Positions 1-19,755 of a stretch of 21,976 nucleotides of DNA are shown here, piece after piece (the first letter of the stretch is position 1; each line of letters opens with the position of its first letter). The notes below the pieces were generated by a model that saw nothing but the letters and a program-made list of their open reading frames with translations, had not been told where the DNA came from and did not search any database. Both the position numbers and the translations under genes were made by a program. Source of the DNA: a virus; IMG/VR virus record IMGVR_UViG_3300021371_000113, positions 1 to 21,976 of that record; one strand, written 5' to 3'.

Positions 1-963
1 GGTATAGTCAGTAGCTGGATCAAGAAGAATACCATTCAGATAAACTTGAAGAGCCCCTGCAGTGTACGCAAGTGTATTTGAGTTGGCATCAGAGCCAGAG
101 AAAGATGTTGTAGAAGACGATACATCGTACTTAAACTCAGTAATAGATGCACCCGCATCAACGCTTGCACCACCACCGCCACCAGAAGATGCAATAGTTA
201 CACTATCGCCTGCGGCACTTGTAGTAAGAGTAACATTGCTACCTGCAACAAGAGTTAACGTATCATTTGCCTGATCTGCAACAACACTTCCTTGTCCAGA
301 AACAGCAATAGTGCCAAATGAGTTTCCTGCACTAGCAGAGTTAGTAATAGTTACAGTATCAGTACTAGCATCTGTAGTTACGCTAATACCACTGCCGCCC
401 ACAAGGGTAAGAGTGTCATTTGTGCTGTCTGCAGCTACAGTAGTTTGCCCAGATACAGCAATATTACCAAAAGCATTGGCCCCAGTGGCTGTATTGGTTA
501 TAGTAATTGTATCGGTACTTGCATTAGTAGTTATACCAATACCAGAACCCGCTGCGAACGTAAGGGTATCTGTAGTAGAGTCTGCAACTACATCAGTTTG
601 CCCAGATACAGCAAAAGTAGAAAAAAGATTTTGGCTGCCGCCTCCACCAGAAGAAGCAAAAGTTATACTGTCTCCAGAAGCGTTCGTAGTAATAGTCATA
701 TTACTGCCAGCAACAAGAGTAAGCGTATCTGTAGCACTATCCGCAACTACATCGCTTTGCCCCGACACAGAAATAGTTTTAAAAGTTTCGGTTACAGTCC
801 CAGATGTGCCGCCTATCTCTACAATGGCATCAGAACCATCATTTTTCTTGATAAACATTTTGCCATCATATGTATTGATAGCAACTTCACCCAGCTCTAA
901 ATCTGAGGTACTAGGAGTATTCCCCGAAACGGAAGACCGTTTGAGTTTAATTGTCTGTGCCAT
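1..963 (-). CDS. Tail fibre-like virion protein, 3' end outside window
   Basis: This is an open frame of 321 codons from ATG at 963 that reaches base 1 without a stop, so the C-terminus is missing. A strong Shine-Dalgarno (GGGGAG, 5 bases before ATG) fixes the start. The protein opens with MAQTIKLKRS and a short segment (GE.AIN...GKMFIKK) that closely resembles the N-terminus of the neighbouring 557-residue fibre protein; in phage fibres such a conserved N-terminus is usually the virion-attachment part. Residues about 58-265 are four tandem repeats of roughly 51-53 residues with the pattern F.TIAVSGQ..VVADS..DTLTLVAGS...TT.AS.DS.TI, two of them ending in glycine runs. The composition is very rich in Thr, Ser, Gly and Ala, as in beta-rich fibres. 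After the repeats comes LQVYLNGILLDPATDYT, a motif common in distal fibre segments. It is probably a structural fibre or fibre-associated protein; the receptor specificity cannot be read. Confidence 0.85.
   Translation of the reverse strand, partial: MAQTIKLKRSSVSGNTPSTSDLELGEVAINTYDGKMFIKKNDGSDAIVEIGGTSGTVTETFKTISVSGQSDVVADSATDTLTLVAGSNMTITTNASGDSITFASSGGGGSQNLFSTFAVSGQTDVVADSTTDTLTFAAGSGIGITTNASTDTITITNTATGANAFGNIAVSGQTTVAADSTNDTLTLVGGSGISVTTDASTDTVTITNSASAGNSFGTIAVSGQGSVVADQANDTLTLVAGSNVTLTTSAAGDSVTIASSGGGGGASVDAGASITEFKYDVSSSTTSFSGSDANSNTLAYTAGALQVYLNGILLDPATDYT
172..789 (-). repeat. Four in-frame 51-53 codon repeats in fibre gene
   Basis: Four degenerate tandem repeats have a period of about 153-159 bases, a multiple of three. 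On the minus strand the most constant part encodes AVSGQ followed by VVADS..DTLTL; on the plus strand the marker TTTGCCC or a variant recurs near 291, 444, 597 and 756. The protein units agree better than the DNA, so this is an old, selected protein repeat rather than a recent DNA duplication. Confidence 0.85.
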
Positions 964-1003: not shown

Positions 1004-2677
1004 TTAGAAAGTGCCGCCGTCCAAAGTGTTTGCCCATGAAGCGACGCCCGAAGTATTCATACTAAGAACATAATCTGAAGCAGTAGCATTTCCAGAGGGC
1101 TTCACTAATCTTGTGTATCCTGCATTTGCAGCTGCCCCTATTAGTAAGTCACCTACCGCTGTTGCTGTGATACCCTTTATTCGTAGCGCATCTCCGCTAA
1201 TTTCTAAAGTTTTATCGTCATCATTTACAGAAAGAGTATTCCCAGATTTAGCAAGACCGTCTCCTGCTGTAATTTGCCCAGCACCAGAAAATTGAGATAC
1301 ATCTAATGCAGTAGTACCTAATGTCGGTTCTCCATTATGTGTAAATACAAAACCATTATCAGCATTAACACTGCCCTGCTCTACAAATACAAACGTACCT
1401 CCAGTTATCTCGGCAGCAGTGTCTGTATCAGTTGATCTGGTAATTACAAAAGGCGCTGCACCCGAACCTACAGTGGTAACAGTATAGATGCCGTTTTCAA
1501 ATGCATTGCTTTGATTTTTAACAAGAAGTCGATCATTTAGCGATAGATTTTGTCCATCAATACCAATTGCACCATTTGAAGATGCTGTAATAGTACCTGC
1601 ACCGTTACTGTAAGTGCCTGGAAGATTTCCAGTGGTTGCTGCTACTACTGATGCTTTAACATCTAGGGATTGAGCTATAGAATCTACATATTCTTTTGTT
1701 GCAAGAGAGTTTGTACCAAAACCAGCGCGATTCTTATACCCAGAAGGAACAGTAACTGTTGCCGTTCCATCCGGCGATAAAATTAAGGCGCCGTTCGAAT
1801 CAGTAGTAGAAATAGTATTTGCATCAATTCTAACATTATCTACATCTAGTTGAGTTCCAGATATTGTAGTAAAAGTTGCGGCAGCTGCAGTATTAGCACC
1901 TATTGTAGCGCCATCAATAGCACCTCCATCAATATCAGGAGTATTAATATCAGGTGAAGTAAGAGTCTTATTTGTAAGCGTCTGCGTAGCAGTATCAGAA
2001 ATAAGATTACTACCTGTTGCAGGAAGTACTAAAACATTAGAGGCGGAAGCACTATGAGGAGCAGCTTGTATTGTTTGAAAATGAGCATTAGAAGATTCAC
2101 AATAGAACTTGATCTTGGAAACATTTCCAGTTCCTGTTCTAATATCTATAAGGCCGTCTGAGATAGTAACGCCACCAGTTGAACCGTCTCCTTCTATAAT
2201 CATAGACTTGCCTGTAACAATCTTCTCAGCAGAGTTGGTTGTTACAAAAGTCATAAAGGTATTAGTACCTTCAGTGATTGTAAGAGCGGTGGCAGAGTTA
2301 TCTATAATCTTAAACTCAGTTGCTTGAGTTTCTAAATTTATTGTACCTGCATCAATATCTAAGTTTGCAGCAGCAACGATATCTACGTCGCCAGAGCCTG
2401 ATGTAATAGAGTTGGCTCCAATTGTAAGATTTGCTGTTTTAAGCTGATCGATTTTACTAGAGGCATCAACAAGTATTGCACTACTAGCAGTAAGAGTACC
2501 TGCGGTGTGATCGAGCATATCAACATATACTTTACCACCAATAGCAGTTACTGAGTTATCAGAAGGTTGTCCAATAAATAACTTATCACTAGCATCAGAG
2601 TACGCTAGCTCACCTGCTACAAGGGAAGAGGGAGCCGAAGTACTAGTACTGCGTTTGATTTTAATTGTTTGAGCCAT
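1004..2677 (-). CDS. Tail fibre / virion structural protein
   Basis: A complete 557-residue protein. ATG at 2677 has GGAG seven bases upstream. The N-terminus (MAQTIKIKRS, GELAYSDASDKLFIG) parallels that of the next fibre gene downstream. Residues about 60-330 are low-complexity and beta-rich, with the TATQTLTNKTLTSP motif seen in many phage fibres and a run of D-I-D-G-G-A type turns. Around residues 337-470 lies a recognisable fibre domain: LDVKASVVAAT, then LNDRLLVKNQ, NGIYTV, FVFVEQGS and NGFVFTHNG. This block recurs in many phage tail fibres. The C-terminal 90 residues (DGLAKSGNTLSV to WANTLDGGTF) resemble repeated fibre-shaft or tip elements. No chaperone-type autocleavage motif or lysin domain is visible. 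It lies in the fibre operon driven by the promoter at 3468-3496. The structural role is firm in general terms; whether it is a side fibre or an adaptor is not known. Confidence 0.85.
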   Translation of the reverse strand: MAQTIKIKRSTSTSAPSSLVAGELAYSDASDKLFIGQPSDNSVTAIGGKVYVDMLDHTAGTLTASSAILVDASSKIDQLKTANLTIGANSITSGSGDVDIVAAANLDIDAGTINLETQATEFKIIDNSATALTITEGTNTFMTFVTTNSAEKIVTGKSMIIEGDGSTGGVTISDGLIDIRTGTGNVSKIKFYCESSNAHFQTIQAAPHSASASNVLVLPATGSNLISDTATQTLTNKTLTSPDINTPDIDGGAIDGATIGANTAAAATFTTISGTQLDVDNVRIDANTISTTDSNGALILSPDGTATVTVPSGYKNRAGFGTNSLATKEYVDSIAQSLDVKASVVAATTGNLPGTYSNGAGTITASSNGAIGIDGQNLSLNDRLLVKNQSNAFENGIYTVTTVGSGAAPFVITRSTDTDTAAEITGGTFVFVEQGSVNADNGFVFTHNGEPTLGTTALDVSQFSGAGQITAGDGLAKSGNTLSVNDDDKTLEISGDALRIKGITATAVGDLLIGAAANAGYTRLVKPSGNATASDYVLSMNTSGVASWANTLDGGTF

Positions 2678-2696
2678 TTAAAACTCCAAAATAGCC

Positions 2697-3104
2697 TTAA
2701 AAGGCTCCTGCATCCACTGTATCAGAGTCATCTGAGATATTGCCTATCATTATAGGAACCCACTCAAATGTTCCGGAACTAGTTTCACGGTAAACTTTTA
2801 GTTGATCATCGTCTGTATCATACCAGGTATCGCCTTCGGATACGTTTGCACCCGTGGGGGCGCTATCAGAACGAAAATCTTGATCTGCAAGTTGTTTTAA
2901 TGCATCATAAACTGTAGTTGCACTGATTGTATTGTAGGGAGTAAAAGAAACATTTGTAGCGTCTACACTTATTGAAGGTAGTGCCACATTATTTACCGTT
3001 ACGCTGGTGTCTTCGGTAACAAGATCTATAGAAATACCGTTGGTATTATTTACAGTTATATCTGTTACTTCTTCTGTAATTGTAATGGAATTTACAACGC
3101 CCAT
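2697..3104 (-). CDS. Small tail/fibre-associated structural protein
   Basis: A 135-residue protein, highly acidic at the C-terminus. The N-terminal 60 residues are beta-strand-rich and full of V-T-V-N-N patterns. The second half holds YDALKQLADQDF, then SAPTGANVSEGDTWYDTDDDQLKVY and FEWVPI. This GDTWYDT...LKVY...W module is widespread in phage fibre and tail-tip proteins, where it forms a small domain often placed near attachment sites. It starts two bases after the stop of the upstream 113-residue gene, with only a weak ribosome binding site, so translation is probably coupled. No enzymatic motif is present. It could be a fibre-anchoring or collar protein; function is inferred from context only. 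Confidence 0.75.
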   Translation of the reverse strand: MGVVNSITITEEVTDITVNNTNGISIDLVTEDTSVTVNNVALPSISVDATNVSFTPYNTISATTVYDALKQLADQDFRSDSAPTGANVSEGDTWYDTDDDQLKVYRETSSGTFEWVPIMIGNISDDSDTVDAGAF

Positions 3105-3106
3105 GC

Positions 3107-3448
3107 TTATCTCGTTACTTCTTGGTTCAAGGTTACCTTTCCTTCAAGAAGGCGCTTAACAATTGCATCGCTACCTGTATGTATTTCTAGATCATAGTAG
3201 TATAAACCAGCTGTCATTGCGGTAGAAGTAGCGGCTGATAATTCCATTTTTACTTGTCCATTTGTAGGAGGAGTAAGAACAGTGCAAGTAAAGGTACCTG
3301 CTACGGCAGAATCTGTTTTAGTTGATCGCATTTGTGCCCTGGCTGAATAGCCAGTAAGATTTTTAGCGGATCCGGATTCTTTAACTGTAAGATCAATAGC
3401 AAAAGTTGATCCTTGGTCAATCACTAGGTCATAGTTAGCTGCGCTCAT
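3107..3448 (-). CDS. Small virion protein with BppU-N-like beta domain
   Basis: A 113-residue protein, first gene of the fibre operon. ATG at 3448 has GGAG seven bases upstream and lies only about 12 bases from the predicted transcription start. The sequence reads as one beta-sandwich: YDLVIDQGSTFAIDLTVK, then LTGYSARAQMR, a Ser/Thr-rich loop, GQVKMELSAATST, GLYYYDLEIHTG and RLLEGKVTLNQEVTR. This order (Q-G-x-T-F, L-T-G-Y-x-A-x-x-Q-x-R, Y-Y-D-L-E, G-x-V) is typical of small tail proteins whose fold resembles the N-terminal domain of receptor-binding baseplate proteins such as lactococcal BppU. In related phages it sits just before the fibre genes. A fibre-to-tail adaptor is the likely role, but it rests on pattern recognition, not a search. 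Confidence 0.75.
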   Translation of the reverse strand: MSAANYDLVIDQGSTFAIDLTVKESGSAKNLTGYSARAQMRSTKTDSAVAGTFTCTVLTPPTNGQVKMELSAATSTAMTAGLYYYDLEIHTGSDAIVKRLLEGKVTLNQEVTR

Positions 3449-3467
3449 TGAAATTCTCCATGATTAA

Positions 3468-3496
3468 ATTATAACAAAGGGGACATACGTAGTCAA
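3468..3496 (-). promoter_or_regulatory. Sigma-70 promoter P2 for fibre operon
   Basis: On the minus strand, TTGACT (3491-3496), a 17-base spacer and a perfect TATAAT (3468-3473). An A-rich tract lies directly upstream and a second TTGACC at 3513-3518. The predicted start falls near 3460, leaving a leader of roughly a dozen bases before the ATG at 3448. It shares its upstream block and a TCCCCT spacer element with the promoter at 15919-15947. Confidence 0.88.
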
Positions 3497-3528
3497 GAAT
3501 TATTTTTTTAAGGGTCAATCCTACCTTA

Positions 3529-6500
3529 TTACGATAAGTTTCCTATTCTAACCCTTAAATTTCCGCTAGAGTCTTTGATATCTATTCTATTATTCGTGCC
3601 GTCAAAAAACATGCTGGAAGCTGTAGAAGAGTTTGCTGAAATAGTTAGCTGCGCTGCATCTACACTACCTGTAGTTATCTTTCCTCCATTAACCGTAGTT
3701 GTGTTGTTATTAATTCTGTCAGCAGGATTGTAGGTGTTGGTGCCGTCATCAATGTCTCCGTCTGCCTGAAAAGTTACCAATCCTGAGAATCCTATTCCCG
3801 GAAGCACAGTTCCTATATCAACACTTTGACTACCTTGATACGTTGACTCTTCCACGGTGAATCTAACATACCAATATCTATTGGTGTTAGCAGCCACAAA
3901 TTCAGGTGCATCTTCATCCCAACCACTACTCTTTGAACCAAAAACTCCGGTTCCAAAGTTATAGCTACTAGCAGAAGGAGCACTAGGTTGTAATGTGGCA
4001 GAATTCTGATAGTATAAGAAACCACTCGCAGTTCTTGCTCCTGTCGCTCCATCCTCTTGAGTTTTAAGAGGGGATGTCCATGTTAAAGAAGTGTCTGTTC
4101 CGGTTGTCCCCTGTATACTAGCAAGAGTTCTTGACTCATATAAAGGATTACCATTTGTAGCTGGAGCAGCTGCACTCCACCCTGTCGGCGGAGTTATTGC
4201 TTGAGTTCCAAAATTATAAGAACCTCCAGTAGGTGTTGCTGGAGCAGAAGCACTTCTTTTAAATACAGAGAAAGCAAAAGTAGATAATCCATCCGACCCA
4301 TCTTCTACGAATTTCGCGGGTGTAGACCAAGTTACAGAGTTATCCGTTCCTGTATCTCCTGAAATCTGAAACTGTGTTCGAGAGGCATACATAATGTTAG
4401 ACCCACCAGGAGGTGAAACATTCCAGCCGCTAGGAGCTGTTAAAGTATTTGTACCAAAATTAAAGGAACCTCCAGTAGGAGTGCTAGGAACACTACTATC
4501 TCTTCTGAAAACAACAGCCTGAAAAGTTGATAGCCCCGTATCTCCGTCATTTAAAGCCAGTACAGGAGTTGACCACGTTAAACTACTATCAGTAGTTGTA
4601 CTTCCTGATACTGAAGCTGTTGTAAGTATCACATACTGAGGGTCAGTTCCAGATGTGGGAGCAACACTCCAACCAGTAGGAGGAGTAAGTGTATTATTAC
4701 TAAAATTAAAGGAGCCTCCAGTTACAGTTGTATTCAACAAACTCGTCGACGATCTCTTATATGCCGCTATTTGTGCTACACTAGTGGAGGGGCTTGCATC
4801 AATACCTGCTCGACCTTTTGTAAAGGTTTGAATTTTAGTATGTACAGTTTCTCTTCCTAGGCTGTCCGTTACTGTTATCTCAAATGTTATTGTTCCACTG
4901 TTCTGGGATAAAGCAGTAATAGAACCCAATGCATAGCTATTAGAGGTTGTTGCAGGGGTAGAGTCCCTAGTAACATTGCTAGTAGTTACGTTTGAAACTC
5001 TGAAAGAAGGCTTAGTATACGGGCTAGAATCATCATAGGCAATTAAAGTTCCTCCAATGTACACAATAATGGTAGTTCCTGTATTATCAAAGCTACTTGG
5101 AGTCCCGGCACTATTACAAGGTACTGTAACATTATCGTTGGTCATATTTACAGTTATTGCATCTTGTGCGCCGTCAGATATGCCTATTCTACCGTTAGAA
5201 GGGCTGGAGGGAAAGAAATCTGAAACAATTGATCTGGGAGCTGTAGAACTTGTTCGTCTTGATGGAGACAGTACGTTATATCTTAACCAGTAATAAAAAG
5301 TTTGCTGCCCCTCTCCAACAATAGGATCAGTAAAAAAGTTACTCTTAGATATACCAACTAACTTTGCATCGTCCCTATCATTAGTGCTAGATCTGTGTAT
5401 TTCTACACTATATGTAGCGGAGTTGAATGCCGGTATATTAGTCCATTGTAGCTCAATACCACCCCTATCATTTTGGGAAACACCATCTCCACTACCACTC
5501 ATATTCATAACGCTAGGAGCGCCTACAATAGCAAGAGTAGGGTCTGTATTTTTTATAACACCCTTTACTCTAGGAGATTCAACTAAGTAGGCATTATCAT
5601 CATGCTCTTCTGCAGTTACCTGAGTAGTACAGTCCTCGTTATAATTTAAATTCGTAACTCTATATAATTTATTAGACCATCCAAATCTTGGGTACGTTAT
5701 CCTAATTATATTACCTGCAACTAAAAGTAGCCCTTTAGGACCTATCTCAAAATTTACTTTCAAGCTTGAGCGAGAGTTCAGCAAATACTGCTTTGCATTT
5801 ACCCTAGCATTAAAATAGTTTGTTACAGAGGGAGTTCTTATGCTTCCTTTCTTAGGAACCATTCTGTCTTCTTTTAAGTAGTTAGAGTCGAAGAGGCTTA
5901 TAGATCTACTTTCAAATCTATTTTGAGGGTCTACTATGCTCAGGTCTACTTGATTAAAAGTTCCTTTTTGACCTTTATCCTCAATAGCAATAGACCCAAT
6001 AATATCCTCATCTGATATATCTTCCGCAACATAATCGACTCCATCGACAGTGATAGTGCTGGGGGGAATGGAAGATCCTTTTACGCCTAAAGAATACTTA
6101 CCGTTAGAATATCGCAGCATTCCGTTAAAGTGCCCCAACATACTATTGATATTTTCAAATATAGGAGTCGAAGTATTTAATACTGTATTAGTTTGATGTC
6201 TAGTAACATGTCTTTGATTTTGGGCCTCCCAACCAAGATATCGCCAATATTTAACATCATCAGAATCATATAAGCTATATCCTGAGTTATAAGTATCTTC
6301 ATTTATAAAGGTCTTAACGACAGGATTACCTTCAAAAGTTGCTCTAGCAGAAGAGACATCTACAGGCAGGCTTGCATTACCAGTGCCACTGACTTTAGTG
6401 ATATTGAAAGAAGTTACACTACTTGTAGTAGAAGGAGTGCTACCTACTGTGCCGTCGCCGGACTTCTGATGTAATCCTCCTAGATAATAATATAAATCTC

Positions 6501-9408
6501 CCGAAGAAAAAGATTTCCAACCTTCCCATCTCTTTGCTAGCTTGCCAAGAACATTTGTGAACGTTATAGAAGTATAGCTCTGATTATTAACAGTAACAGC
6601 TACAGTACTTTTTACCTCTCCTTCCCATATGCATCTAGTTCCAGAAGTATATTTATAAACAGCTCCTACCGAAGGAACATTATTTGAAGCAATTAGTAAT
6701 GTAACATCTGACCCCGTATCACAAGTTCTAGCACTAGCTAAAAATGACTCTAAATCAATGTCAGTAGACAAATCTAAATCACGACCATATCTGTTGTTAG
6801 TAAGATAATCAAGTAGTTGCATTACAGGATTTATAGACACTCTAATATCGCTGTCTTTAGAGAATATTTTATATGTATCAGAAGAAGTAGGCAGAAGCTC
6901 ATCCTCAAAAGGTGCTTCAACTACAGCAACTCTTGAGCCTCCATCATAGTCTACTATTTTTCTTTCTTGAACTTTAGTGCTGCCATCAGATTTAACTTTA
7001 GTAAGCTCTATAATCATTCCATTATAAGCATTATCTGTACTGCTTGCTCCAGAGCCCAGTACAACAGCATCTTTTAATGTTACATAGCTTCCTACAACAT
7101 TTGCAACTCCAGTTGCAGTGCTTCCTATCTCTGTAATAACATTTCCGCTTCCTGAATAAGAAAAAGTATATTCATCTAATAAAGCTTTTGAAAAATCATC
7201 GCTTGCAGTCTCAGCTAGGGTTACTAAATCAGATATAGCTAAAGCGTCCTGCATTGCAGTACTAGGAGAGCTTAAAGTAAGATCAGCTGAAACACCATTA
7301 GAATTAGCTGCGACAGAACTTACTTGAGTTTTTAGAGTTTCTGCGACTGTTCCTGTGTTTTCAGTATTATTATAAGTTTGTAAATGATAAGTATTTGAAC
7401 CACTAACAATATAAAAAGAAGTGGTTGTACCTATAGGAGGAAGATCAACAAACTGAATTCTAGGAGTTTTTGTACCATTAACTTCTAAACGTTCAAAAGT
7501 ATCTTTAATTACAGCGGTGCCTAAAGTACTGTCATCTGAAGTTTTCTTTACAGTTACTGTTTCTCCAAGTGTAAAAACGTCATATGCAGCATCCCCAGAA
7601 GTGTAGGAAGGATGTTGTGCATAAGAAAAATCATAATTGTAGCACTTTACACCCTTTCCTCTAACTACAAAATCTAAAGAAGGAATTGTTGTTTCTCCTT
7701 CTGAAATCTTATATTCCGCAACAGCATATGCTGTGTCTAATACGCGGTGGCTTGCTCCCCAGTAGTCAGAGGTACCAGAATAATATGCATTGCCTAATTT
7801 AAAATTTGCAGCTTGACTTAGCAATAATGCATCGGCTTTTTGATCGCTTTTACCAGAGTGAAAAATTAATCTAGTATCAATTGGAGTAATAAAAGAAGTA
7901 CCCTTTTCATGAGTTACTCCTGCTCCTTGTTCGGTTGCTCCACCTGCAAAAGTAGTTGAAGGAGTGTTATAGCTGTAAGAAGCATAAGCTGTTTCATTTT
8001 CTGTTCTCGAACTACTATGTGAGCTGGCTCCATTTGATTCAGAGTGAGGAGAGGCGGTTGCAGTTGAACCACTATTAATATCTCGAGGTGCAAGAGTGTC
8101 TCCTCTATCCATTCTACCGGAGCAAACTACATCTACACTTCCTTGATCAGATTGAGAGCCTCGAGTCCCGGAATCTTGTAAGTCAATACAGATAGAAGAA
8201 GTATCATCAAAATATACATCGTATAAGCCGCCTATTTCCCCTTCACATAGAGCATAGGCACAGTAAACTGTACTTGCGTCATTATTTAAAGTATCGACAA
8301 AAAATGGAATACTATCAATTTTATTTACCCCATATACAACAGGTAGGTACTTTGCTTCTAAGTTAAATCGAAGATCAGTTTCTCTATCAACTGTTACTTC
8401 GTACTCCACCATCTTTTTGCCGCCAAAAGCGCCCGCTAAGCCACCTCGTCTCTTTTCTTTATATCGAGTTTCTTGTACTTGATATACTCCTATAAGATTT
8501 ACAGCGAGTTCACTGTGTTCAAACCCTAAGTCTTTCGCATACGCAGGACGTATAGTAGCTTCTGGATCTGGCTTATTGGAACTATTAAGGGCTCTGTGAG
8601 AGGCATCTGATGTTATTCTTCCCTGCACCCTTGAAAAATCAGCCCAGTGGCTGCTAAGTGTCCAGGAAATAATTGCTTCCTTTTCTGGATCTTCGGTCAT
8701 TTTACCGCCAGAAATAATTCCCTTAAATAATAAGTACGGATCTCCTATAATACTTCCTGTGGCATCCATGTGGGCTTTATAGATAAAAACATCTCTATTA
8801 ATATATCTGGCATAACCAGTAAGAGATCTATCTGTTATAACCCCATCTATTTCAGGGCTGGAAAAGGAGATAGTGATTGAAGTTGAGCTTTCATTAGACA
8901 ACGATGTAATTGCAGTAATATTTGCAGTAAGATTATTGTTTGAAAAAGTATTAATTCTGGCTTCTTTGCCGTTATTGGTTCCTCCAGATATAGAAATTAA
9001 ATCGCCTTCTCTAAAGCCTTCTTCCACTAAATCTTTGGTACCAGTTATAGAAGAAGCAGTTGTTGTGAAAAGATCTGTTACAGAAGTATTAAGTGCAGCT
9101 GCAGACAAGGTTATTGTCATAGAAGATGCTTTTGCTTGAATAGTTTCAGATACTGGGCCTACTTTTTTTAACTTATTTGCAATATAAGTCTGGGAGCCAG
9201 TATTATTACCTGCAGCATCTTGAGTTAAGTCATCATAGATAATATCCATAGAACCATCTGTAATATATGAGTAGTCTTTTGCTCTACGAGGGCTTTTACC
9301 TAAATCAGTGGCGAGCGGTTTCTCAAACTTTACAAGATGAGCATATGAAAATGCGTCTTCTTTCAATAAAGAATTTCTAAGAGTGGTACCTATATTTCTA
9401 ATTGCCAT
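3529..9408 (-). CDS. J-like tail tip / central fibre protein
   Basis: A very large 1959-residue protein, the usual last gene of the tail-tip block. Residues 1-260 (FEKPLATDLG, YITDGSMDIIYDD, LLFKGIISGG, ISWTLSSHWADFSRVQGR) resemble hub proteins of the lambda gpL/DUF2163 type, suggesting a hub domain fused to J. Residues about 330-900 hold variable beta domains. INPVMQLLDYLTNNRYG (residues about 855-870) and ENINSMLGHFNGMLRYSNGKYSL (about 1085-1110) are hallmarks of J-family host specificity proteins. A fibronectin-III-like segment (IELQWTNIPAFNSATYSVEIHRS) follows near 1315-1345. Residues about 1540-1880 are tandem 82-86 residue repeats. The C-terminus ends in a short fibre-like segment (TTGSVDAAQL, FFDGTNNRIDIKDSSGNLRVRIGNLS). 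The start shares one base with the stop of the upstream gene (TAATG), with GGAAG nearby. It should form the tip that contacts the host receptor. Confidence 0.88.
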   Translation of the reverse strand: MAIRNIGTTLRNSLLKEDAFSYAHLVKFEKPLATDLGKSPRRAKDYSYITDGSMDIIYDDLTQDAAGNNTGSQTYIANKLKKVGPVSETIQAKASSMTITLSAAALNTSVTDLFTTTASSITGTKDLVEEGFREGDLISISGGTNNGKEARINTFSNNNLTANITAITSLSNESSTSITISFSSPEIDGVITDRSLTGYARYINRDVFIYKAHMDATGSIIGDPYLLFKGIISGGKMTEDPEKEAIISWTLSSHWADFSRVQGRITSDASHRALNSSNKPDPEATIRPAYAKDLGFEHSELAVNLIGVYQVQETRYKEKRRGGLAGAFGGKKMVEYEVTVDRETDLRFNLEAKYLPVVYGVNKIDSIPFFVDTLNNDASTVYCAYALCEGEIGGLYDVYFDDTSSICIDLQDSGTRGSQSDQGSVDVVCSGRMDRGDTLAPRDINSGSTATASPHSESNGASSHSSSRTENETAYASYSYNTPSTTFAGGATEQGAGVTHEKGTSFITPIDTRLIFHSGKSDQKADALLLSQAANFKLGNAYYSGTSDYWGASHRVLDTAYAVAEYKISEGETTIPSLDFVVRGKGVKCYNYDFSYAQHPSYTSGDAAYDVFTLGETVTVKKTSDDSTLGTAVIKDTFERLEVNGTKTPRIQFVDLPPIGTTTSFYIVSGSNTYHLQTYNNTENTGTVAETLKTQVSSVAANSNGVSADLTLSSPSTAMQDALAISDLVTLAETASDDFSKALLDEYTFSYSGSGNVITEIGSTATGVANVVGSYVTLKDAVVLGSGASSTDNAYNGMIIELTKVKSDGSTKVQERKIVDYDGGSRVAVVEAPFEDELLPTSSDTYKIFSKDSDIRVSINPVMQLLDYLTNNRYGRDLDLSTDIDLESFLASARTCDTGSDVTLLIASNNVPSVGAVYKYTSGTRCIWEGEVKSTVAVTVNNQSYTSITFTNVLGKLAKRWEGWKSFSSGDLYYYLGGLHQKSGDGTVGSTPSTTSSVTSFNITKVSGTGNASLPVDVSSARATFEGNPVVKTFINEDTYNSGYSLYDSDDVKYWRYLGWEAQNQRHVTRHQTNTVLNTSTPIFENINSMLGHFNGMLRYSNGKYSLGVKGSSIPPSTITVDGVDYVAEDISDEDIIGSIAIEDKGQKGTFNQVDLSIVDPQNRFESRSISLFDSNYLKEDRMVPKKGSIRTPSVTNYFNARVNAKQYLLNSRSSLKVNFEIGPKGLLLVAGNIIRITYPRFGWSNKLYRVTNLNYNEDCTTQVTAEEHDDNAYLVESPRVKGVIKNTDPTLAIVGAPSVMNMSGSGDGVSQNDRGGIELQWTNIPAFNSATYSVEIHRSSTNDRDDAKLVGISKSNFFTDPIVGEGQQTFYYWLRYNVLSPSRRTSSTAPRSIVSDFFPSSPSNGRIGISDGAQDAITVNMTNDNVTVPCNSAGTPSSFDNTGTTIIVYIGGTLIAYDDSSPYTKPSFRVSNVTTSNVTRDSTPATTSNSYALGSITALSQNSGTITFEITVTDSLGRETVHTKIQTFTKGRAGIDASPSTSVAQIAAYKRSSTSLLNTTVTGGSFNFSNNTLTPPTGWSVAPTSGTDPQYVILTTASVSGSTTTDSSLTWSTPVLALNDGDTGLSTFQAVVFRRDSSVPSTPTGGSFNFGTNTLTAPSGWNVSPPGGSNIMYASRTQFQISGDTGTDNSVTWSTPAKFVEDGSDGLSTFAFSVFKRSASAPATPTGGSYNFGTQAITPPTGWSAAAPATNGNPLYESRTLASIQGTTGTDTSLTWTSPLKTQEDGATGARTASGFLYYQNSATLQPSAPSASSYNFGTGVFGSKSSGWDEDAPEFVAANTNRYWYVRFTVEESTYQGSQSVDIGTVLPGIGFSGLVTFQADGDIDDGTNTYNPADRINNNTTTVNGGKITTGSVDAAQLTISANSSTASSMFFDGTNNRIDIKDSSGNLRVRIGNLS
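3757..4785 (-). repeat. Tandem 82-86 aa repeats in tail tip protein
   Basis: Successive units begin with GGSFNF, GGSFNF, GGSYNF and SSYNF at residues 1564, 1646, 1728 and 1814; the first three start exactly 246 bases apart. Each contains TPPTGW or a variant, then SLTWSTP, then DG..GLSTF..V.FKR. A partial unit precedes the first (VAQIAAYKRSS) and a diverged one follows the last (SGLVTFQADGD). The periods are in frame, as expected for domain duplication in a fibre-like tip. Confidence 0.88.
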
Positions 9409-10139
9409 TACTGTACTTCTTCCAATTTTAAGGAATATTCATATAAGTTATTAGTATTTAATGAATATTGCTGGGTATCTGTAGCGATTACTTTAATTAA
9501 AGGATTATGAAAAATAAAATCATCCGCAGCTTCAACTTGCTTTGACATAGGAGGAATAAAATGTATTCGAACCTGAGAGTTATTGGGCGCAACTGTACCA
9601 CTTAAATAATCTGCATCAGTTTCTACTCTAGTAACCATATATGCTTTTTTATGGTTTGAGTTTGTTCCACTGATAGTGAATAAGTCTCCAGGCAAAGGTT
9701 TGCTGTTGGAGCCGTCATTATTATTATAACCAGACTTCTCTATGAGCGCAGAGGTAGATCCTGCTGTCACAGTTACATCTGCCTCTAGGTTATTACTTGC
9801 AGCATAAGTAGCAAAATTAGAGTTTTGTGGGACTCTATACTGAGGAAGAGAGACAAAAAAAGGATTCATTGCACCCTGTCTCTGTAACAAAAAAGTATAG
9901 ATAGGATCAAACTGCTCTTTTGTCATAGGATTATACTTTATATCTATAGTCCATTTATGGGAAGCAATTGATCTTGCGAGTAGTCTTCCAGAATTTGTAA
10001 AATCTCTAATAGTTGGCTGTGCCGATTTTAGAACAACAGACGAGTACCCAGGACCTGCTGTACCTGCAGATTGTCCTGCATGCCCAATAGAATTATTGGG
10101 ATCAGGAAGTATATTTTGAAAAGAAGAAAAAGCTGCCAT
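9408..10139 (-). CDS. Distal tail / minor tail protein, gpM- or Dit-like
   Basis: A 243-residue protein between tape measure and tail tip genes, overlapping both neighbours by one base (TAATG), which implies tight translational coupling. The diagnostic segment is HKWTIDIKYNPMTKEQFDPIYTFLLQRQGAMNPFFVSLP (residues about 61-100): a W-x-I-D-x-x-Y...M...Q...I..F...R-x-G...F pattern seen in lambda gpM-type minor tail proteins and other distal tail proteins. The rest is beta-rich, with GDLFTISGTN and LNTNNLYEYSLKLEEV at the end. In siphoviruses this protein forms the ring at the tail end that receives the tip complex. Only this gene stands between tape measure and J, so it probably takes the place of several lambda tip genes. 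Confidence 0.8.
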   Translation of the reverse strand: MAAFSSFQNILPDPNNSIGHAGQSAGTAGPGYSSVVLKSAQPTIRDFTNSGRLLARSIASHKWTIDIKYNPMTKEQFDPIYTFLLQRQGAMNPFFVSLPQYRVPQNSNFATYAASNNLEADVTVTAGSTSALIEKSGYNNNDGSNSKPLPGDLFTISGTNSNHKKAYMVTRVETDADYLSGTVAPNNSQVRIHFIPPMSKQVEAADDFIFHNPLIKVIATDTQQYSLNTNNLYEYSLKLEEVQ

Positions 10140-13100
10140 TAGTATCTACTCACACCACCTGCAGAGGGAGTATATGTTGAAGTATCTACTTCCTCTACAA
10201 AGTCTTGGCCATATGAATTTGCGGCCTGACGTATCATTCCTATAATATTACCTCTCTGGGCAACTAACATATCCTCTACTCCTGAAGCGTCGATAGCGTT
10301 AATATTAAAACTTACATTAGTAGGAGCACCTGCAATCATATCATCATTTGGTACTACTCTACCAGGTATTTGTGGAACAAAGAGTTCAGGCCCCTGTTCT
10401 CCTACAATTAATCCGGTAGTCCCACCTTCTGCTCTATTTTTATATCCTGAGAAGGCTGGGTGCGGGGTTTCTGTCCCTTCCTCTCTATTTTTATATCCTG
10501 CAAAAGCTGGTCGGAAGTTCTCTGCGCCTCCCGACCCTTCCTCTCCCCTCATGTACGCAATTTCACCACTCGAAGAGCGAGATGTTGCTAAATCAACAGA
10601 ACTGCCCCTAGAGCCCATAGAAACACTTGAAGGCGCAGCACCTGATACACTAGCACCACCATTGAAGGAGGTAGAGGCTATCATTGCCATTTGCTTTGCT
10701 CCCATTGCAATAACAAGACCAGCCATCATCGCCCCCACTATCTGCCCAAAAGGAGGCCCCAGCACCTGTGCAGAAGCATAAGCTTGAAGTGCTCCCACTG
10801 CCGTAGAAATAGCAACTTGAGCCATTTTCATCTTTTTCTCTTGCTCAAAAGCCTTTCTAGCAACGGCTGTTTTCTTTTTCTCTAAGGATGATATCTTACT
10901 AAGAGACTCCTGGGATTTTCCGTCTCTGTTTCTCTCTGCCTCTATTTCTTGTTCTAGTGCTCTTGTCTTTTGAGCACTTGCTGCTTTTTGAACTTCAGCA
11001 ATAGTATTTATAATAGCTGAGACTGGTGCCAATGCAGCGGCAATCTTCTGACCAGTGGTAGCGCTGTCGGTGGCAAAAACATCCATGGCGGCACTTATAG
11101 ACCCAAGAGTATTAGCAATCCCTGAGCTAAGAGCAGACATCAGCTCTCCTTCAGGACCTAACTTCTTAAATTCTTCTGCTAAAGCATCAAAGGTATCTGT
11201 GAGTCCCAGCAGCATGTTTTGGAAGGGGGACATACCGGAGGCAGTCCTAGTCTCCATGTCATCTATGCCCTTTATAAGGGCTTCAATTGATGCATTATTA
11301 CTTCTTCGTCCTAGCTCATCAGCAGCTATTTGGCGCTCTGTTATCTCTAAAACCTTTAGTTTAGCTTTAGCTAAATCAATCTCAGTTTGAATTATTGCTT
11401 TTTTGACAGGACCTATGTCTGTTAATACAGCTTTTTCTTTTACGGCTATTTCTAGCGCTAATGCCTCTGTTTTTAGTGAGGCCGCGCGTGCTTTACCTCC
11501 CGCACCGGATATTGAATTAGCAAAGAGTTGAGCCTCAGCATTTTCATTTATCCCCTTCCTTAATTTTTCTAAAGTAGTTCTTAACTCTTTAGCATTCTCA
11601 TCAGCTATACTTACAGAGTTCTTAAAACTATTTAAAGCAGCATCTGCAGACTCTGTTTCACCTAAAAGTCTAAAGCTTTCAGCTGCACTTTCAGCTGATC
11701 TTTCCATCTCTATAAGAGATTGAATAGCGGAGCTAACGTCTCCCGAACCGAGAGAATTTGCTAATTTAGGCGCTATATCACTTACTTGTGTTTTTAACTC
11801 TGCTGACATTGCTACTGCATTACTGGCAGCAATTTCATAGTCTTCTAGATTCTTTATATCCTTAGACGTAGAGAAATAACTAAAAGCCTTTTCTATCAAG
11901 CTGCCGTAAGCTTCGCTAACCCCGCTTGCTCCGGCAAGAGAATCTCTTAGATTATCAATTGCAGCTGCTTGATTCTTTAAAATTTCTTCTTTTTGCGAAT
12001 CTGTGGCGCTCTCTGGTATACCAAAACTAGATTCGATTTTTTTCTTCTGCCCTGTTACGCCCAGACTTGCTATACCTTCTGCTACTGCTAAGCCACGTTC
12101 TGCTGCGTCAGTCTCTGCATTTATTCCTGCGGTGATTCCTAATAGGTCTTTCTGCATTGCATCTGAGACTTTATTTAGCGCTGCAAGTTGTTCTTCTGAA
12201 GCTAAAACTGCCTTTCTACCTTGCTCAAATTCTTTTAAAGCGCCCCCATACTTTTCCACCGCAGCTGTTGCTATTGAAATATTTGTGGCAAAAGGGGTAA
12301 AAGAGTCCGCTAAGTTACTAACAGAGGTATTTAGCTCATCTGCAGGAGCTACAGTATCAGCTAGTTCACTTTTAAGTGTTAATGTACTAAAGTTAGTTTT
12401 TAAGAGTAAATTGGATGCATCAATAAGATCATTAACCACACTTACTGCCCCATTAACAGTAGAATCTATAGCTGAGAAAAGTCCAACAAATACAAGTCGA
12501 ACACCTCTTCCTGCTAGTTGGAATCCCATAGATATTGAATTAACTATAAAATCTACAATTGAAAGTACGCTTTTTGCCCAGAAATTAAATAGCATAATAA
12601 TACCATTTAGTATTCCATCAGCCGCCTTAGCTAAATTACTTAAAACCGTAAAAGGAGCATTATATAAGCTAGTTATAGCCTCTTTTACTATAATTATAAG
12701 TCCAAGTATTCCTGCGAATCTAAATGCCTTATCTACAGCATTGCCCATTACTGTGGCAGCTTTACCCGCAGTTATAAATGCAGAAGTAGCCTCCTTGCTT
12801 ACTTTTGCCATAACTACTTTACTGGTCAGAGCTAGTTTTCTATATTGAACTTGTACTTTTTGGAAAAAAGTTGTGCTAGATCGATCCATACTGTTAAATG
12901 CTGAATTAAAACCTCTAACAATATCTATGTTGAGTCCTTTGAATTGTCCGCGGACAATCCTACCGTGCCGAGTATACTGATGCTCGGCCTCTTTTAGCAT
13001 TTTATTTAACTGACCTTTTTGAGCAGGACTCAGTGTAATTCCTTGAGCTACTTTAGATATCAGGCTTTTTGGACCTGCTTTTGATTTACTCTGGTCTATT

Positions 13101-14185
13101 ATATCGGAAGCACCCTTAGAAGCGGTCAAGCCTCGCTGCTCCGCTATTTTTGCTGCAGTTTTATCTAACTCGCTTCTATATCGTTTCAAATCGTCTTCTG
13201 CTTTACTAAGATTAGCACTGGATGATGATGTCCAGTCTTCAAACTTTTGCTGTATAGTGTCCAGAGGCACAGCAGCTTTAAATATATTTATAGCGAGTAG
13301 GCCAAAAGCTGCCACAGCAGCCGATGAACTTCTAGAAATAATATCTGCTATACCAGAAAACACGGGGAGTACTGCTTGAGTAGCAACTTTAACTAAATCT
13401 TCAAAAGTTTTACTTAATTTTACAAAAGGATTGGATTGTGCCTCTATATCTCCAAATAAATCATTTAATTGCCTTTGAGTCTCTATAAGTACTGCCTGGC
13501 TTCGTTGAGTAGCATTTAATTCGTCTCTATTTACTCCTATGGCATCGGCATATCTTCTTGTAGCTTCTTCGAGTCGTAAAGTAATACCTAATTCATCCAG
13601 CAGTTCGGGTTCTGCCTTAGATGCACCTCGTACAAGTCTATCAAAAGAATCCGAGAAGTCTCTACCCAAAGCAGTAGAAGCTCTGCGGGCACCGTCAGCT
13701 AAATCTTCTAGCTGCTTAGGGGAGAATCCTTTGGCTAAACCGATAGCGGCTGCCTGTCCTGCCTCAGAGAAGCCTAAGAGACCATCTGATGCTTCTCTCA
13801 GTCTAGCCGTAACAGACTGTAGTGCAACTCCTGTATTAGTTGCAAAATCGACTTGAGATTTCTGAAGTATGGTTACATCTGCAGCATTTTTTAGAAATTG
13901 AAACGCAGCGCTAAGAGCAAAAACATTTGCAGCTAAAACTGCATAAGCAGGTACTAATCCTCCCCCAACTACTGAGGCCTGCTTAGCAAAACCTTTTGTA
14001 GAATTACTAGTAAGGCCTGCAGTGCCTTTTTCTAGCTTATTATATTTATTTTTTGATCGGGATGCTTTATCAGTAGCGCCGGTTAGCTTTTCTGTAGCAG
14101 CAGCAGCTTTTTTTGCATTCTTACCAATAATATTAAGAGTGCCATCATCATCGACAGTTATCTTTAGTTTTACTGTATTAGCCAC
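10139..14185 (-). CDS. Tail tape measure protein
   Basis: A 1348-residue protein directly after the chaperone pair, as expected for the tape measure. Translation starts at GTG (14185), sharing one base with the preceding TAG. There are long Ala/Lys/Glu-rich helical stretches throughout, with hydrophobic segments near residues 70-100, 270-305, 490-515, 525-575 (IIMLFNFWAKSVLSIVDFIV) and 1130-1175 (QVLGPPFGQIVGAMMAGLVIAMGA). A charged coiled coil lies near 1090-1130. The C-terminal segment TTGLIVGEQGPELFVPQIPG matches the G-x-x-G-x-E-G-P-E-L motif found late in many tape measures. Just before it is a 17-residue tandem repeat. By the usual rule of about 0.15 nm per residue the tail would be near 200 nm. 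No lysozyme or peptidase domain is evident. Confidence 0.93.
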   Translation of the reverse strand: MANTVKLKITVDDDGTLNIIGKNAKKAAAATEKLTGATDKASRSKNKYNKLEKGTAGLTSNSTKGFAKQASVVGGGLVPAYAVLAANVFALSAAFQFLKNAADVTILQKSQVDFATNTGVALQSVTARLREASDGLLGFSEAGQAAAIGLAKGFSPKQLEDLADGARRASTALGRDFSDSFDRLVRGASKAEPELLDELGITLRLEEATRRYADAIGVNRDELNATQRSQAVLIETQRQLNDLFGDIEAQSNPFVKLSKTFEDLVKVATQAVLPVFSGIADIISRSSSAAVAAFGLLAINIFKAAVPLDTIQQKFEDWTSSSSANLSKAEDDLKRYRSELDKTAAKIAEQRGLTASKGASDIIDQSKSKAGPKSLISKVAQGITLSPAQKGQLNKMLKEAEHQYTRHGRIVRGQFKGLNIDIVRGFNSAFNSMDRSSTTFFQKVQVQYRKLALTSKVVMAKVSKEATSAFITAGKAATVMGNAVDKAFRFAGILGLIIIVKEAITSLYNAPFTVLSNLAKAADGILNGIIMLFNFWAKSVLSIVDFIVNSISMGFQLAGRGVRLVFVGLFSAIDSTVNGAVSVVNDLIDASNLLLKTNFSTLTLKSELADTVAPADELNTSVSNLADSFTPFATNISIATAAVEKYGGALKEFEQGRKAVLASEEQLAALNKVSDAMQKDLLGITAGINAETDAAERGLAVAEGIASLGVTGQKKKIESSFGIPESATDSQKEEILKNQAAAIDNLRDSLAGASGVSEAYGSLIEKAFSYFSTSKDIKNLEDYEIAASNAVAMSAELKTQVSDIAPKLANSLGSGDVSSAIQSLIEMERSAESAAESFRLLGETESADAALNSFKNSVSIADENAKELRTTLEKLRKGINENAEAQLFANSISGAGGKARAASLKTEALALEIAVKEKAVLTDIGPVKKAIIQTEIDLAKAKLKVLEITERQIAADELGRRSNNASIEALIKGIDDMETRTASGMSPFQNMLLGLTDTFDALAEEFKKLGPEGELMSALSSGIANTLGSISAAMDVFATDSATTGQKIAAALAPVSAIINTIAEVQKAASAQKTRALEQEIEAERNRDGKSQESLSKISSLEKKKTAVARKAFEQEKKMKMAQVAISTAVGALQAYASAQVLGPPFGQIVGAMMAGLVIAMGAKQMAMIASTSFNGGASVSGAAPSSVSMGSRGSSVDLATSRSSSGEIAYMRGEEGSGGAENFRPAFAGYKNREEGTETPHPAFSGYKNRAEGGTTGLIVGEQGPELFVPQIPGRVVPNDDMIAGAPTNVSFNINAIDASGVEDMLVAQRGNIIGMIRQAANSYGQDFVEEVDTSTYTPSAGGVSRY
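10432..10500 (-). repeat. 17-codon tandem repeat near tape measure C-terminus
   Basis: An identical 18-base block (plus strand CTCTATTTTTATATCCTG) occurs at 10432-10449 and 10483-10500, exactly 51 bases apart. It encodes part of PAFAGYKNREEG and PAFSGYKNRAEG. A related Glu/Gly-rich stretch (GEEGSGG) lies just before. This is an in-frame duplication with slight divergence. Confidence 0.85.
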
Positions 14186-14571
14186 TATTTTTTTCTCTTT
14201 AGCTTATCATACTCTTTCTTCATTTGCTCTGAAGACTTTTTGATAGCTCTTGAGTCGAGAAAAGACAGTATTTCTAAAAAGAATTCAATGTCTTCAATCG
14301 CATACAATTCTATATAATAAGGTAGATTAGTATAATCTTTTCCCATGTAACCTATTTCTGAAGCTACTCTATCTCCTAACATATTAAAAGTATTAGCAGC
14401 ATAAACAATAATTTCTGGAAGATCCTCCCAATCAGGAGGAATTTCGTTATCTTTGGGCTCTTGCCCCAGCTGCTCCATCATCGTGAAATATTTATCACGA
14501 GTCATTCCGGTATCGCTATTCTGAAACAGCTTTTCTAGCCTTGCTAGGGCTTGTTCCTTTTGTTCTGTCAC
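14185..14571 (-). CDS. Second tail assembly chaperone frame (gpT-like position)
   Basis: A 128-codon open frame between the first chaperone and the tape measure. The earliest start in frame is GTG at 14571, with no Shine-Dalgarno before it; an in-frame TAG lies at 14581-14583. It overlaps the preceding gene by 56 bases. The product is acidic in the middle and lysine-rich at the end: RLEKLFQNSD, then EIPPDWEDLPEIIVYAANTFNMLGDR, YYIELYAIEDIEFFLEILSFLDS and MKKEYDKLKRKK. Position, size, helical character and frame overlap fit the downstream half of a G/GT-type chaperone pair, normally made by programmed frameshifting. It ends in TAG overlapping the tape measure GTG. Independent initiation at the GTG cannot be excluded. 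Confidence 0.75.
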   Translation of the reverse strand: MTEQKEQALARLEKLFQNSDTGMTRDKYFTMMEQLGQEPKDNEIPPDWEDLPEIIVYAANTFNMLGDRVASEIGYMGKDYTNLPYYIELYAIEDIEFFLEILSFLDSRAIKKSSEQMKKEYDKLKRKK

Positions 14572-14965
14572 GAAAGTTTTCTAGATCAAAGACTACCTCG
14601 TTGAGCCATGTATCAAACTCAGAGGAATTTGTTACTAATACTTCTGCGTTATCTTTAGTGTACTCTACTTCTGCATTTTTATCCTGCCCTTCCGCATCTA
14701 TAAGAATTAAAGTTTCTAGATGATTTACAGTTAAACCCTTCCAGTCCTTGATGCTAGCGTCAGCAAACTCTACTACGAACTTATCTTCATCTAGATTTTC
14801 AACAGGTTGTCTTGTTTTTCTGTCAAATTTGGTTGTAGTACACCTTTTTCTTAGTGCATTTAATTCTTTTCTAGAAAGATTGGCTACTTCTACAGAGAAG
14901 CCTTCTAAGCCGGGAAAGTCCATCCATACAGACTTAGTGTCGACCATTAATTTTTTAAGATCCAT
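14516..14965 (-). CDS. Tail assembly chaperone (gpG-like)
   Basis: A 149-residue protein. ATG at 14965 follows a Shine-Dalgarno (AGGAG) that overlaps the TAG stop of the upstream gene. The sequence is a compact mixed alpha/beta protein: VWMDFPGLEGFSVEVANLSRKELNALRKRC, then FVVEFADASIKDWKGLTVNHL and SSEFDTWLNEVVFDLENFRDR, ending in a Lys/Arg-rich tail. Substrate-module style phrases such as SVEVANLSRKEL and IKDWKG are common in siphovirus tail assembly chaperones, and the protein is in the canonical position before the tape measure. Such proteins coat the tape measure during tail assembly and are absent from the mature virion. The last 56 bases overlap the next frame, probably for recoding. 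The call rests on position plus pattern. Confidence 0.82.
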   Translation of the reverse strand: MDLKKLMVDTKSVWMDFPGLEGFSVEVANLSRKELNALRKRCTTTKFDRKTRQPVENLDEDKFVVEFADASIKDWKGLTVNHLETLILIDAEGQDKNAEVEYTKDNAEVLVTNSSEFDTWLNEVVFDLENFRDRTKGTSPSKARKAVSE

Positions 14966-14977
14966 TAAACTAAACTC

Positions 14978-15868
14978 CTAGTTTGTTACATATTTAAAGA
15001 TTGACGCTAGAGAGGAACTATTATCAGTAACTCTCCAGTCATAGTTTTGAAGAAATACAGCACCTGTATTCATTCTATTTGTAAAAGTACCTGTGGCAGC
15101 TCCAATATGAAATCCTCTAAAAGAGGAGCCGCTAAGACCGTTACCTGCTTTAATCTCTAAAGTAATAGAGGATTTCCAGGATTGGGCAGTACTTGTATTT
15201 GTATCTGTAAGATACTGAGAAATTGAACCGGCAAGTATTTTCTTAGACACAGTATACCCAGAAGGGTACATTGAGTTTGAGGCAGATGTAACATCTCGAG
15301 CAGCATGAACAGTGGAATAAGGTGTCCAATCTATCTCATTTTGAAGCTCAACTTTTAATGCTACAATATCTGTTAGGGTGGCAGAATCTATAACTACGTC
15401 TAAAATAGGGTTCACTAAAAAATTCTTTGTAGTGGACCTACTTTGAAGAGTACCCGATAAAGTACTATCCGTAGTTAGCTTAGATGCTTCTCCTTGAATC
15501 TCAATACTCAGGGGTCGTGATTTCTCAATTACGAAACTACCATTTGTAATGACACATGTTTCAAGTTTAAAAACATCTGTGGGTGTAGAAACAAATAAGG
15601 TAAAAGAAGTATTATCTATTAACAAAGTTTCTACAATACTAAAGTCGGCTTCTTGAATAGCCGCCATAGTGAAAGAAAAATTAGCAGGGTTAGCTTTATT
15701 AATAACACTGCCTTCAAAATAGTCTGTTAGAGCATGTAAAGTTTTAACAGTATAGCTTTCTTCTGCAAATGTTTGGCTGAAGGAAACATCACTGACATCT
15801 ATTCTGTGCCTAGAGTTGCCTTGTACTACATATACTTGTACTTCTTTCTTAAAATTGTAGCTAGGCAT
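14978..15868 (-). CDS. Second tail-tube-like structural protein
   Basis: A 296-residue protein, first gene after the promoter at 15919-15947. ATG at 15868 has only a weak AAAAAGAA element before it. It is beta-rich with no signal peptide or membrane segment. Its N-terminal part, DVSDVSFSQTFAEESYTVKTL (residues about 24-44), aligns by eye with VLDGFTFSQATNSSEITLNEM of the major tail tube protein. The following strand (ANFSFTMAAIQEADFSIVETLL) matches that protein's GDWSFSTYVRP and VEEVLWALF segments. This suggests a paralogue with the same tube fold: a second tube subunit, a tube-initiation ring, or a minor tail protein. The C-terminal third (residues about 185-290) is a separate beta-rich segment. 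The tube-like reading is inference from weak similarity. Confidence 0.7.
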   Translation of the reverse strand: MPSYNFKKEVQVYVVQGNSRHRIDVSDVSFSQTFAEESYTVKTLHALTDYFEGSVINKANPANFSFTMAAIQEADFSIVETLLIDNTSFTLFVSTPTDVFKLETCVITNGSFVIEKSRPLSIEIQGEASKLTTDSTLSGTLQSRSTTKNFLVNPILDVVIDSATLTDIVALKVELQNEIDWTPYSTVHAARDVTSASNSMYPSGYTVSKKILAGSISQYLTDTNTSTAQSWKSSITLEIKAGNGLSGSSFRGFHIGAATGTFTNRMNTGAVFLQNYDWRVTDNSSSLASIFKYVTN

Positions 15869-15918
15869 TTCTTTTTAACTCTAAGAGAATAACGTACTCT
15901 CACTTTTAATTAACCTAT

Positions 15919-15947
15919 AGTATAATGGAGGGGAGGAAAAATGTCAA
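15919..15947 (-). promoter_or_regulatory. Sigma-70 promoter P1 for tail assembly operon
   Basis: On the minus strand, TTGACA (15942-15947, perfect), a 17-base spacer and TATACT (15919-15924). It lies between the terminator at 15971-15992 and the 296-residue gene, so it restarts transcription for the tail assembly genes. A second TTGACC sits at 15963-15968. The predicted leader is about 45 bases. The architecture is shared with the promoter at 3468-3496. Confidence 0.85.
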
Positions 15948-15970
15948 GAATTATTTTTGTTTGGTCAAAG

Positions 15971-15992
15971 AAAAAGGGACCGAAGTCCCTTT
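15971..15992 (-). terminator. Rho-independent terminator after major tail gene
   Basis: On the minus strand the transcript reads AAAGGGAC, loop UUCG, GUCCCUUUUU: an 8-base-pair stem closed by a C(UUCG)G tetraloop, one of the most stable tetraloops, followed by a U run. It starts about 20 bases after the stop of the major tail tube gene. The opposite strand has a much poorer T tract. Confidence 0.92.
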
Positions 15993-16012
15993 ATCTGTAA
16001 GTACTCTAGTTA

Positions 16013-17296: not shown

Positions 17297-17357
17297 AGTT
17301 TTCTCCTATGAAACTTGAAAAGACTTGGACGTGAACATCTGTTCGTGCCAGTATTTT
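17297..17357 (-). other. 61-bp gap before major tail gene, with GAACN4GTTC
   Basis: The gap holds the strong ribosome binding site of the tail tube gene and an inverted repeat GAACATCTGTTC at 17333-17344. No sigma-70 promoter and no T-tract terminator are visible. The repeat has the GAAC-N4-GTTC form of Gram-positive LexA (SOS) boxes, but nothing else supports that, and one such match in 22 kb is not surprising. Confidence 0.35.
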
Positions 17358-19695: not shown

Positions 19696-19710
19696 AAGTA
19701 TATTAGTAAA

Positions 19711-19735: not shown

Positions 19736-19755
19736 GTTATAGAGCTTAATTAGTA

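Follow-up and report, generated by a model that had tools for sequence, protein, structure and literature searches.

Two promoters of an uncultured marine T5-like phage carry the letters of a putative late class

We found evidence that two minus-strand promoters of the window (the whole 21,976-nt stretch analysed, positions 1 to 21,976 of IMG/VR record IMGVR_UViG_3300021371_000113), here called site A and P1, very probably belong to a late promoter class, where "late" is taken from gene content and from the analogy with phage T5. One frame, AAAAATA(A/G)TTC-TTGACA-N17-TATAAT, would serve early and late operons of this phage group, and the promoters of virion genes carry additional letters upstream of it and in the spacer. 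On sequence comparison we consider it likely that site A and P1 are sigma-70-type promoters of late genes used by the host polymerase, and that the late-only letters are read in the switch from early to late transcription. In T5 all promoter classes use sigma-70 polymerase, and the mechanism of the early-to-late switch has been described as unknown (PMC7472727). More than 200 marine promoters whose letters differ consistently between early and late could narrow the T5 switch to a few positions and a candidate protein or two, and these letters allow early and late operons to be predicted from sequence alone in an abundant group of uncultured phages.

Judging from its genes, the window comes from an uncultured marine T5-like phage related to the Demerecviridae. 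It is a T5-like structural module with all large ORFs on the minus strand (Table 1), and it matches the major capsid, major tail, tail tube and distal tail families. When the proteins of T5 and of the window were mapped on 37 related records, T5 structural and replication genes were found in T5 order, the latter being D2, D3, ligA, ligB, D5, D6, primase, polymerase and D10-D15. The closest isolates are Demerecviridae with only 44-49% identity in terminase and polymerase, so the collection holds no close cultured relative. The predicted terminator directly upstream of P1 probably closes the major-tail-protein unit, after which P1 would restart transcription and drive the tail-tube, tape-measure and hub operon. 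Site A, which follows the stop codon of the 1959-aa gene and precedes the fibre operon, would in turn drive the fibre-assembly and fibre genes. The two adjoining fibre-like genes have a common start, MAQTIK(L/I)KRS, and relatives hold more copies of such genes (e.g. G004 45687-47766). At the other end of the window, the 662-aa ORF matches both the head maturation protease family and the major head protein family; protease and capsid, which are separate genes in T5, appear to be fused here, and a strong terminator-like hairpin, TGGGGCGGTTCGCCGCCCCA AGTTTTT, lies directly 3' of the capsid gene at 19734-19715 (-).

Table 1. Promoter elements, predicted terminator and genes of the window.
Feature	Positions	Strand	Basis or remark
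Site A -10 hexamer TATAAT	3468..3473	-	T after it (late-type), TGT before it
Site A spacer, 17 nt, ACGTATGTCCCCTTTGT	3474..3490	-	TCCCCT at 3478-3483, spacer positions 8-13
Site A -35 hexamer TTGACT	3491..3496	-	sequence
Site A AAAAATAATTC block, about -46 to -36	3497..3507	-	A-tract at proximal UP element position
Site A upstream TTGACC	3513-3518	-	22 bases up from -35
Site A late-promoter ACC element	3513..3515	-	5 nt before block; within TTGACC 3513-3518
P1 -10 hexamer TATACT	15919..15924	-	A after it
P1 spacer, 17 nt, TTTTTCCTCCCCTCCAT	15925..15941	-	TCCCCT at 15929-15934, spacer positions 8-13
P1 -35 hexamer TTGACA	15942..15947	-	sequence
P1 AAAAATAATTC block	15948..15958	-	same block as site A
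P1 upstream TTGACC	15963-15968	-	21 bases up from -35
P1 late-promoter ACC element	15963..15965	-	4 nt before block; within TTGACC 15963-15968
Predicted intrinsic terminator AAAGGGACTTCGGTCCCTTT-TTCTTT	15973..15992	-	-13.5 kcal/mol, z -3.9; directly upstream of P1
Capsid protease/capsid fusion ORF, 662 aa	19756-21744	-	family matches
Major tail protein	16013-17296	-	family match
Tail operon behind P1	3529..15868	-	gene content
Base plate tail tube family protein	14978-15868	-	first in P1 tail operon
P1 tail operon ORFs	14516-14965; 14185-14571	-	
Protein of tape-measure length	10139-14185	-	P1 tail operon
Distal tail protein	9408-10139	-	P1 tail operon
1959-aa protein	3529-9408	-	P1 tail operon
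First gene behind site A, 113 aa	3107..3448	-	phrog_1084 / L-shaped tail fibre assembly family
ORF after 113-aa gene, site A operon	2697-3104	-	
Fibre-like genes, site A operon	1004-2677; 1-963	-	

A generic sigma-70 scan of window positions 2500-21976, with shuffled sequence as the expectation, ranks site A and P1 at the top; both have a 17-nt spacer and they are the only sites at which the -35 and -10 together match 11 of 12 consensus positions, while looser matches number 43 against 48 expected by shuffling. The layout given for them in an earlier, sequence-only reading is exact: the identical 16-base block AAAAATAATTCTTGAC, the TTGACC upstream, the 17-base spacer and the TCCCCT inside it all stand where that reading placed them. 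In E. coli the proximal subsite of the UP element reads AAAAAARNR at about -46 to -38, and in the marine block this position is occupied by AAAAATAAT. Placed against the E. coli consensus, the A-tract may work as a proximal UP element and make both promoters strong; the marine block is, however, far more fixed than the E. coli element and includes a TTC joined to the -35.

The frame is shared by the 37 related records, with up to 17 copies per record. A 40-base search allowing at most three mismatches gave dozens of matches in 22 related records, and no more than 17 in each of 25 further ones, with none for the reversed pattern used as control in either set. With the block left free, TTGAC-N18-TATAAT occurs 193 times in the 37 records, against 0-9 times at each of eight other spacings, and the block is present at 8 or more of its 11 positions in 167 of these 193 sites as compared with 25 of the 2294 other TTGAC sites. 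Because the counts for spacing and block exceed their controls, we take the block and the 17-nt spacer to be a real promoter frame. The exact 16-mer has at least 125 copies at no fewer than 120 loci in IMG/VR, and among the matches listed 103 of 125 are followed at 16-18 nt by a -10 hexamer, the distance being 17 nt in nearly every case. There were no matches to the block in HTVC008M, Mosig, P-HM2, S-SSM7, KIT04 or D254, the pelagiphages, cyanophages and cultured Vibrio T5-like phages tested are without the frame, and a short-query phage search returned chance matches only. We found no published description of the motif in the freely accessible literature searched, where the matches for AATTCTTGACA were unrelated papers.

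The frame stands before early (replication) and late (virion) operons alike. The 16-base block had been considered as a signature of late or tail genes; since early replication operons use it too, it was ruled out in this role, and the block alone cannot co-regulate tail and fibre genes. On the other hand, the motif is indeed present at other operons of the relatives, where its absence had been named as the finding that would count against the proposal, and the idea of a distinct late-promoter class holds up in the form of the extra conserved letters that virion-gene promoters carry ahead of the block and within the spacer.

Promoters were labelled by the nearest same-strand gene downstream, the early positions being those before D2, D3, ligA, ligB, primase and D11, and the late ones those before the T5.156 homologue, between TerL and T5.153/portal, at P1 and at site A. 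The early logo reads AAAAATArTTCTTGACA......yTyAAAtTt..G-TATAAT-AT, with CTYAAAWTT-like spacers, G at -13 and TATAATA, and the late one aaCc....AAAAATAATTCTTGACAttt.accTc...T....-TATAAT-T. The trimer ACC stands 2-7 nt before the block in 55 of 70 late and 15 of 78 early promoters, where shuffling of the upstream sequence predicts 7.9 and 3.8; of the 64 trimers tested it gives the strongest difference. In each late position class its distance to the block is most often 4-5 nt, which places it at about -54 to -51, and in the portal-type promoter of record G006 it is located past the stop codon of the upstream gene. As the early count above expectation indicates, ACC is not exclusive to late promoters, being present in 6 of 15 ligB promoters. 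Directly after the -10, 77 of 78 early promoters have A and 48 of 70 late ones T, although P1-class promoters mostly keep the A, as early ones do. Late promoters are also richer in C; the per-sequence p values (Fisher 2.6e-13 for ACC, 3e-8 for C content of the spacer and 6e-13 for that of the upstream region) overstate independence, since orthologous sites share descent. Safer figures come from the comparison of four late with six early position classes, in which every late class exceeds every early one in spacer C content and the class means are fully separated, and from leaving out one position at a time. Site A and P1 themselves have the ACC 2-7 nt before the AAAAATA block, a C-rich spacer and a virion gene behind them, the features that define the late class, and their late-minus-early profile scores are 18.5 and 17.4 (with both sites included in the profile).

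The same letters were found in hold-out loci chosen by protein alone (TerL or D5-like), from which promoters already used had been removed. Here ACC is present in 43/45 portal-type promoters, 10/12 upstream of TerL and 15/102 early ones, and T follows the -10 in 39/45, 6/12 and 0/102 respectively; G at -13 is found in 2 of the 45 portal-type promoters against 68 of the 102 early ones. A late/early profile trained on the first set was correct for all 45 portal-type promoters, for 11 of the 12 upstream of TerL and for 101 of the 102 early ones. With one position left out at a time it was correct for 60/67 late and 72/77 early promoters. The P1 class is its weak spot (12/16 correct and 4/16 called early when this class is left out); the discriminator of this class looks early.

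The early and late promoters of T5 differ mainly in the discriminator, the early one being ATATT (PMC7472727), and the discriminator of the marine early class starts in the same way. T5 early promoters (P-H207, P-N25, P-K28a; AY543070) resemble the marine group in their A-tract before the -35 and their 17-nt spacer, and the marine early class also in a GCTTAAA-like spacer word and in TATAAT followed by ATAT; the operons behind them are the same (D2, D3, lig, D10/D11). Their -35 region, however, reads TTGCTT or TTGCTA, as against TTCTTGACA in the marine group. With TTGACT or TTGACA at -35, C-rich spacers and no CTYAAA word in them, site A and P1 fall outside the T5 early class. On the late side, P-J5, P-G25 and the oad promoter of T5 are similar to the window promoters in having near-consensus TTGACA with TATACT or TATAAT before virion genes, but P-J5 and P-G25 lack the ACC 4-5 nt before an AAAAATA block, and T5 late promoters occupy other operon positions and have no common C-rich spacer. 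The promoter annotated upstream of oad reads AAAAATAATTTTTTCATTTACATTCTCCCCTATTTAATTTATAAT. The marine system would best be called a T5-like variant, with the same operons and layout and a different -35 region and late signature. In a single case that echoes site A, T5 has AAAAATAATT together with TCCCCT in the spacer upstream of oad, which encodes the receptor-binding protein (AY543070, 110429, minus strand). The late promoters of T4 have no -35, read TATAAATA and use the phage sigma gp55. T4-type late promoters, like the marine ones, are a phage-wide class marking late genes; the marine late promoters differ from those of T4 in having normal -35 and -10 hexamers.

Two kinds of reader are conceivable for the late letters, a DNA-binding protein of the phage or an RNA polymerase that a phage factor has altered. 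We regard reading by a dedicated phage factor as a serious possibility, if somewhat short of an even chance. It is also quite conceivable that the two window promoters are strong sigma-70 promoters of the ordinary kind, helped by an A-tract UP element, and that host RNA polymerase alone reads all the letters; such tuning by the polymerase alone is nearly as likely as a multi-HTH protein as the reader. The late and early letters would then influence only strength, melting or start-site choice, and timing would come from the order of DNA entry, from replication or from a factor like gpT5.026 at the discriminator. Several observations are compatible with this explanation: both hexamers are close enough to consensus to do without an activator, the A-tract is placed as a UP element would be, all T5 classes use sigma-70 RNA polymerase while gpT5.026 acts via the discriminator, and the base right after the -10 is the strongest difference between late and early promoters. 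The ACC is harder to accommodate: at about -53 it is beyond the positions that sigma usually contacts, it lacks the A/T-richness of a UP subsite, and nearly every late promoter has it, at five operon positions whose flanks are unrelated.

Were a phage protein to read the late letters, the best candidate would be a D5-like protein (L285:5233-5970), predicted to contain four HTH modules, and the second a PC4-like protein (PF02229; L285:3136-3435), whose nearest solved structure is 4bg7; both are encoded in records holding the early block. The D5-like protein (phrog_323; Pfam Sigma70_r4_2 and HTH_23) has 86% mean column identity among 21 marine copies. Its AlphaFold model contains four three-helix modules whose arrangement is unreliable (pTM 0.32), and a fold search with this model gave no significant match to the whole protein. 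According to its annotation, the D5 of T5 binds DNA, is needed for late transcription and takes part in the shutoff of earlier genes; this known role, the conservation and the predicted HTH modules are the sole links that make the D5-like protein a candidate. We hypothesise, tentatively and with the odds against it, that a late regulator of the phage, most likely this four-HTH protein, recognises the ACC at about -53 together with the C-rich spacer. If true, this would offer a sequence handle on the unexplained switch of T5.

Promoter cassettes have been proposed for T4-type phages, and the marine promoters could similarly be kept mainly as recombination joints for module swaps, with the late signature spread by promoter copying. 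The relatives of site A, which hardly differ between the A-tract and the start codon and are wholly different upstream, are in line with such joints. However, spacer and leader vary among the late classes, which have in common no more than ACC, block, hexamers and C-richness, a pattern that resembles selection on parts rather than a copied cassette, and we regard this explanation as improbable.

Still less credible, and in our view very improbable, is that the two window promoters have only the A-tract in common and that TTGACC and TCCCCT are accidental matches between them. What could be said for it is that neither motif is kept in full. In site A orthologues the place of the ACC reads TAACC, ATACC, ACACC or AGACC, so the TTG of the TTGACC first noted is incidental and only its ACC core, 4-5 nt before the block, is retained. 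The supposedly fixed TCCCCT is found in most site A orthologues, which keep the GTCCCCTTTG stretch of the spacer, but in few P1 orthologues, whose spacers are mostly TTTTTCCTC or TTTTTCCTT (CCTC or CCTT); the common trait is C-richness (CCTC, CCCC, TCCC). The ACC and C-rich cores nevertheless recur in independent position classes and in hold-out loci, contrary to an A-tract plus chance. Dismissing TTGACC as pure chance on the loss of its TTG was likewise dropped, as the ACC core recurs in all late position classes. A binding geometry of two helical turns, suggested from the two window promoters, finds no support: the distance from the upstream ACC to the spacer C-run is about 32 nt in site A but about 28-29 nt in P1 and the promoters of the portal type.

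Capture of a host chromosomal promoter form by the phages is the least believable explanation: the exact block with TATAAT has 91 matches in bacterial contigs, mostly from Ruminococcus and other Clostridia (e.g. L184, L197, L202, L220), but in the two marine gammaproteobacterial bins searched the frame matches cluster on phage-like contigs, with 8/9 of those in a 2.1 Mb bin labelled Halieaceae on one contig bearing the T5 early block, so that the frame there is the phage's and not the host chromosome's, and 4/5 of those in a Porticoccaceae bin on one phage-like contig with T5 early genes. The matches in Clostridia are as expected for strong A/T-rich sigma-70 promoters. For the host of the window phage we lean weakly towards marine Gammaproteobacteria, weakly because the labels of the MAG bins in which such contigs occur disagree (Halieaceae, Porticoccaceae, unclassified Gammaproteobacteria and Euryarchaeota). 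The closest relative of P1 (IMGVR 2778260978_000002; L029/L165) is apparently the same as L208 (NYUL01000013.1), from the Gammaproteobacteria MAG CPC44, a weak hint at the host.

Two further elements were observed in the relatives. A conserved 135-aa protein (phrog_4258; L285:14715-15122 and homologues) is always encoded between D10 and D11 and has its own early promoter in front. Just downstream of P1-type promoters in L178-L181, G014, G041 and G043 there is a GC-rich terminator-like stem-loop, AGGGGCTTTTCGGAGCCCCT, which, being located in the leader, follows the promoter instead of preceding it and could be a leader element or attenuator; the P1 leader of the window has a weak hairpin only.
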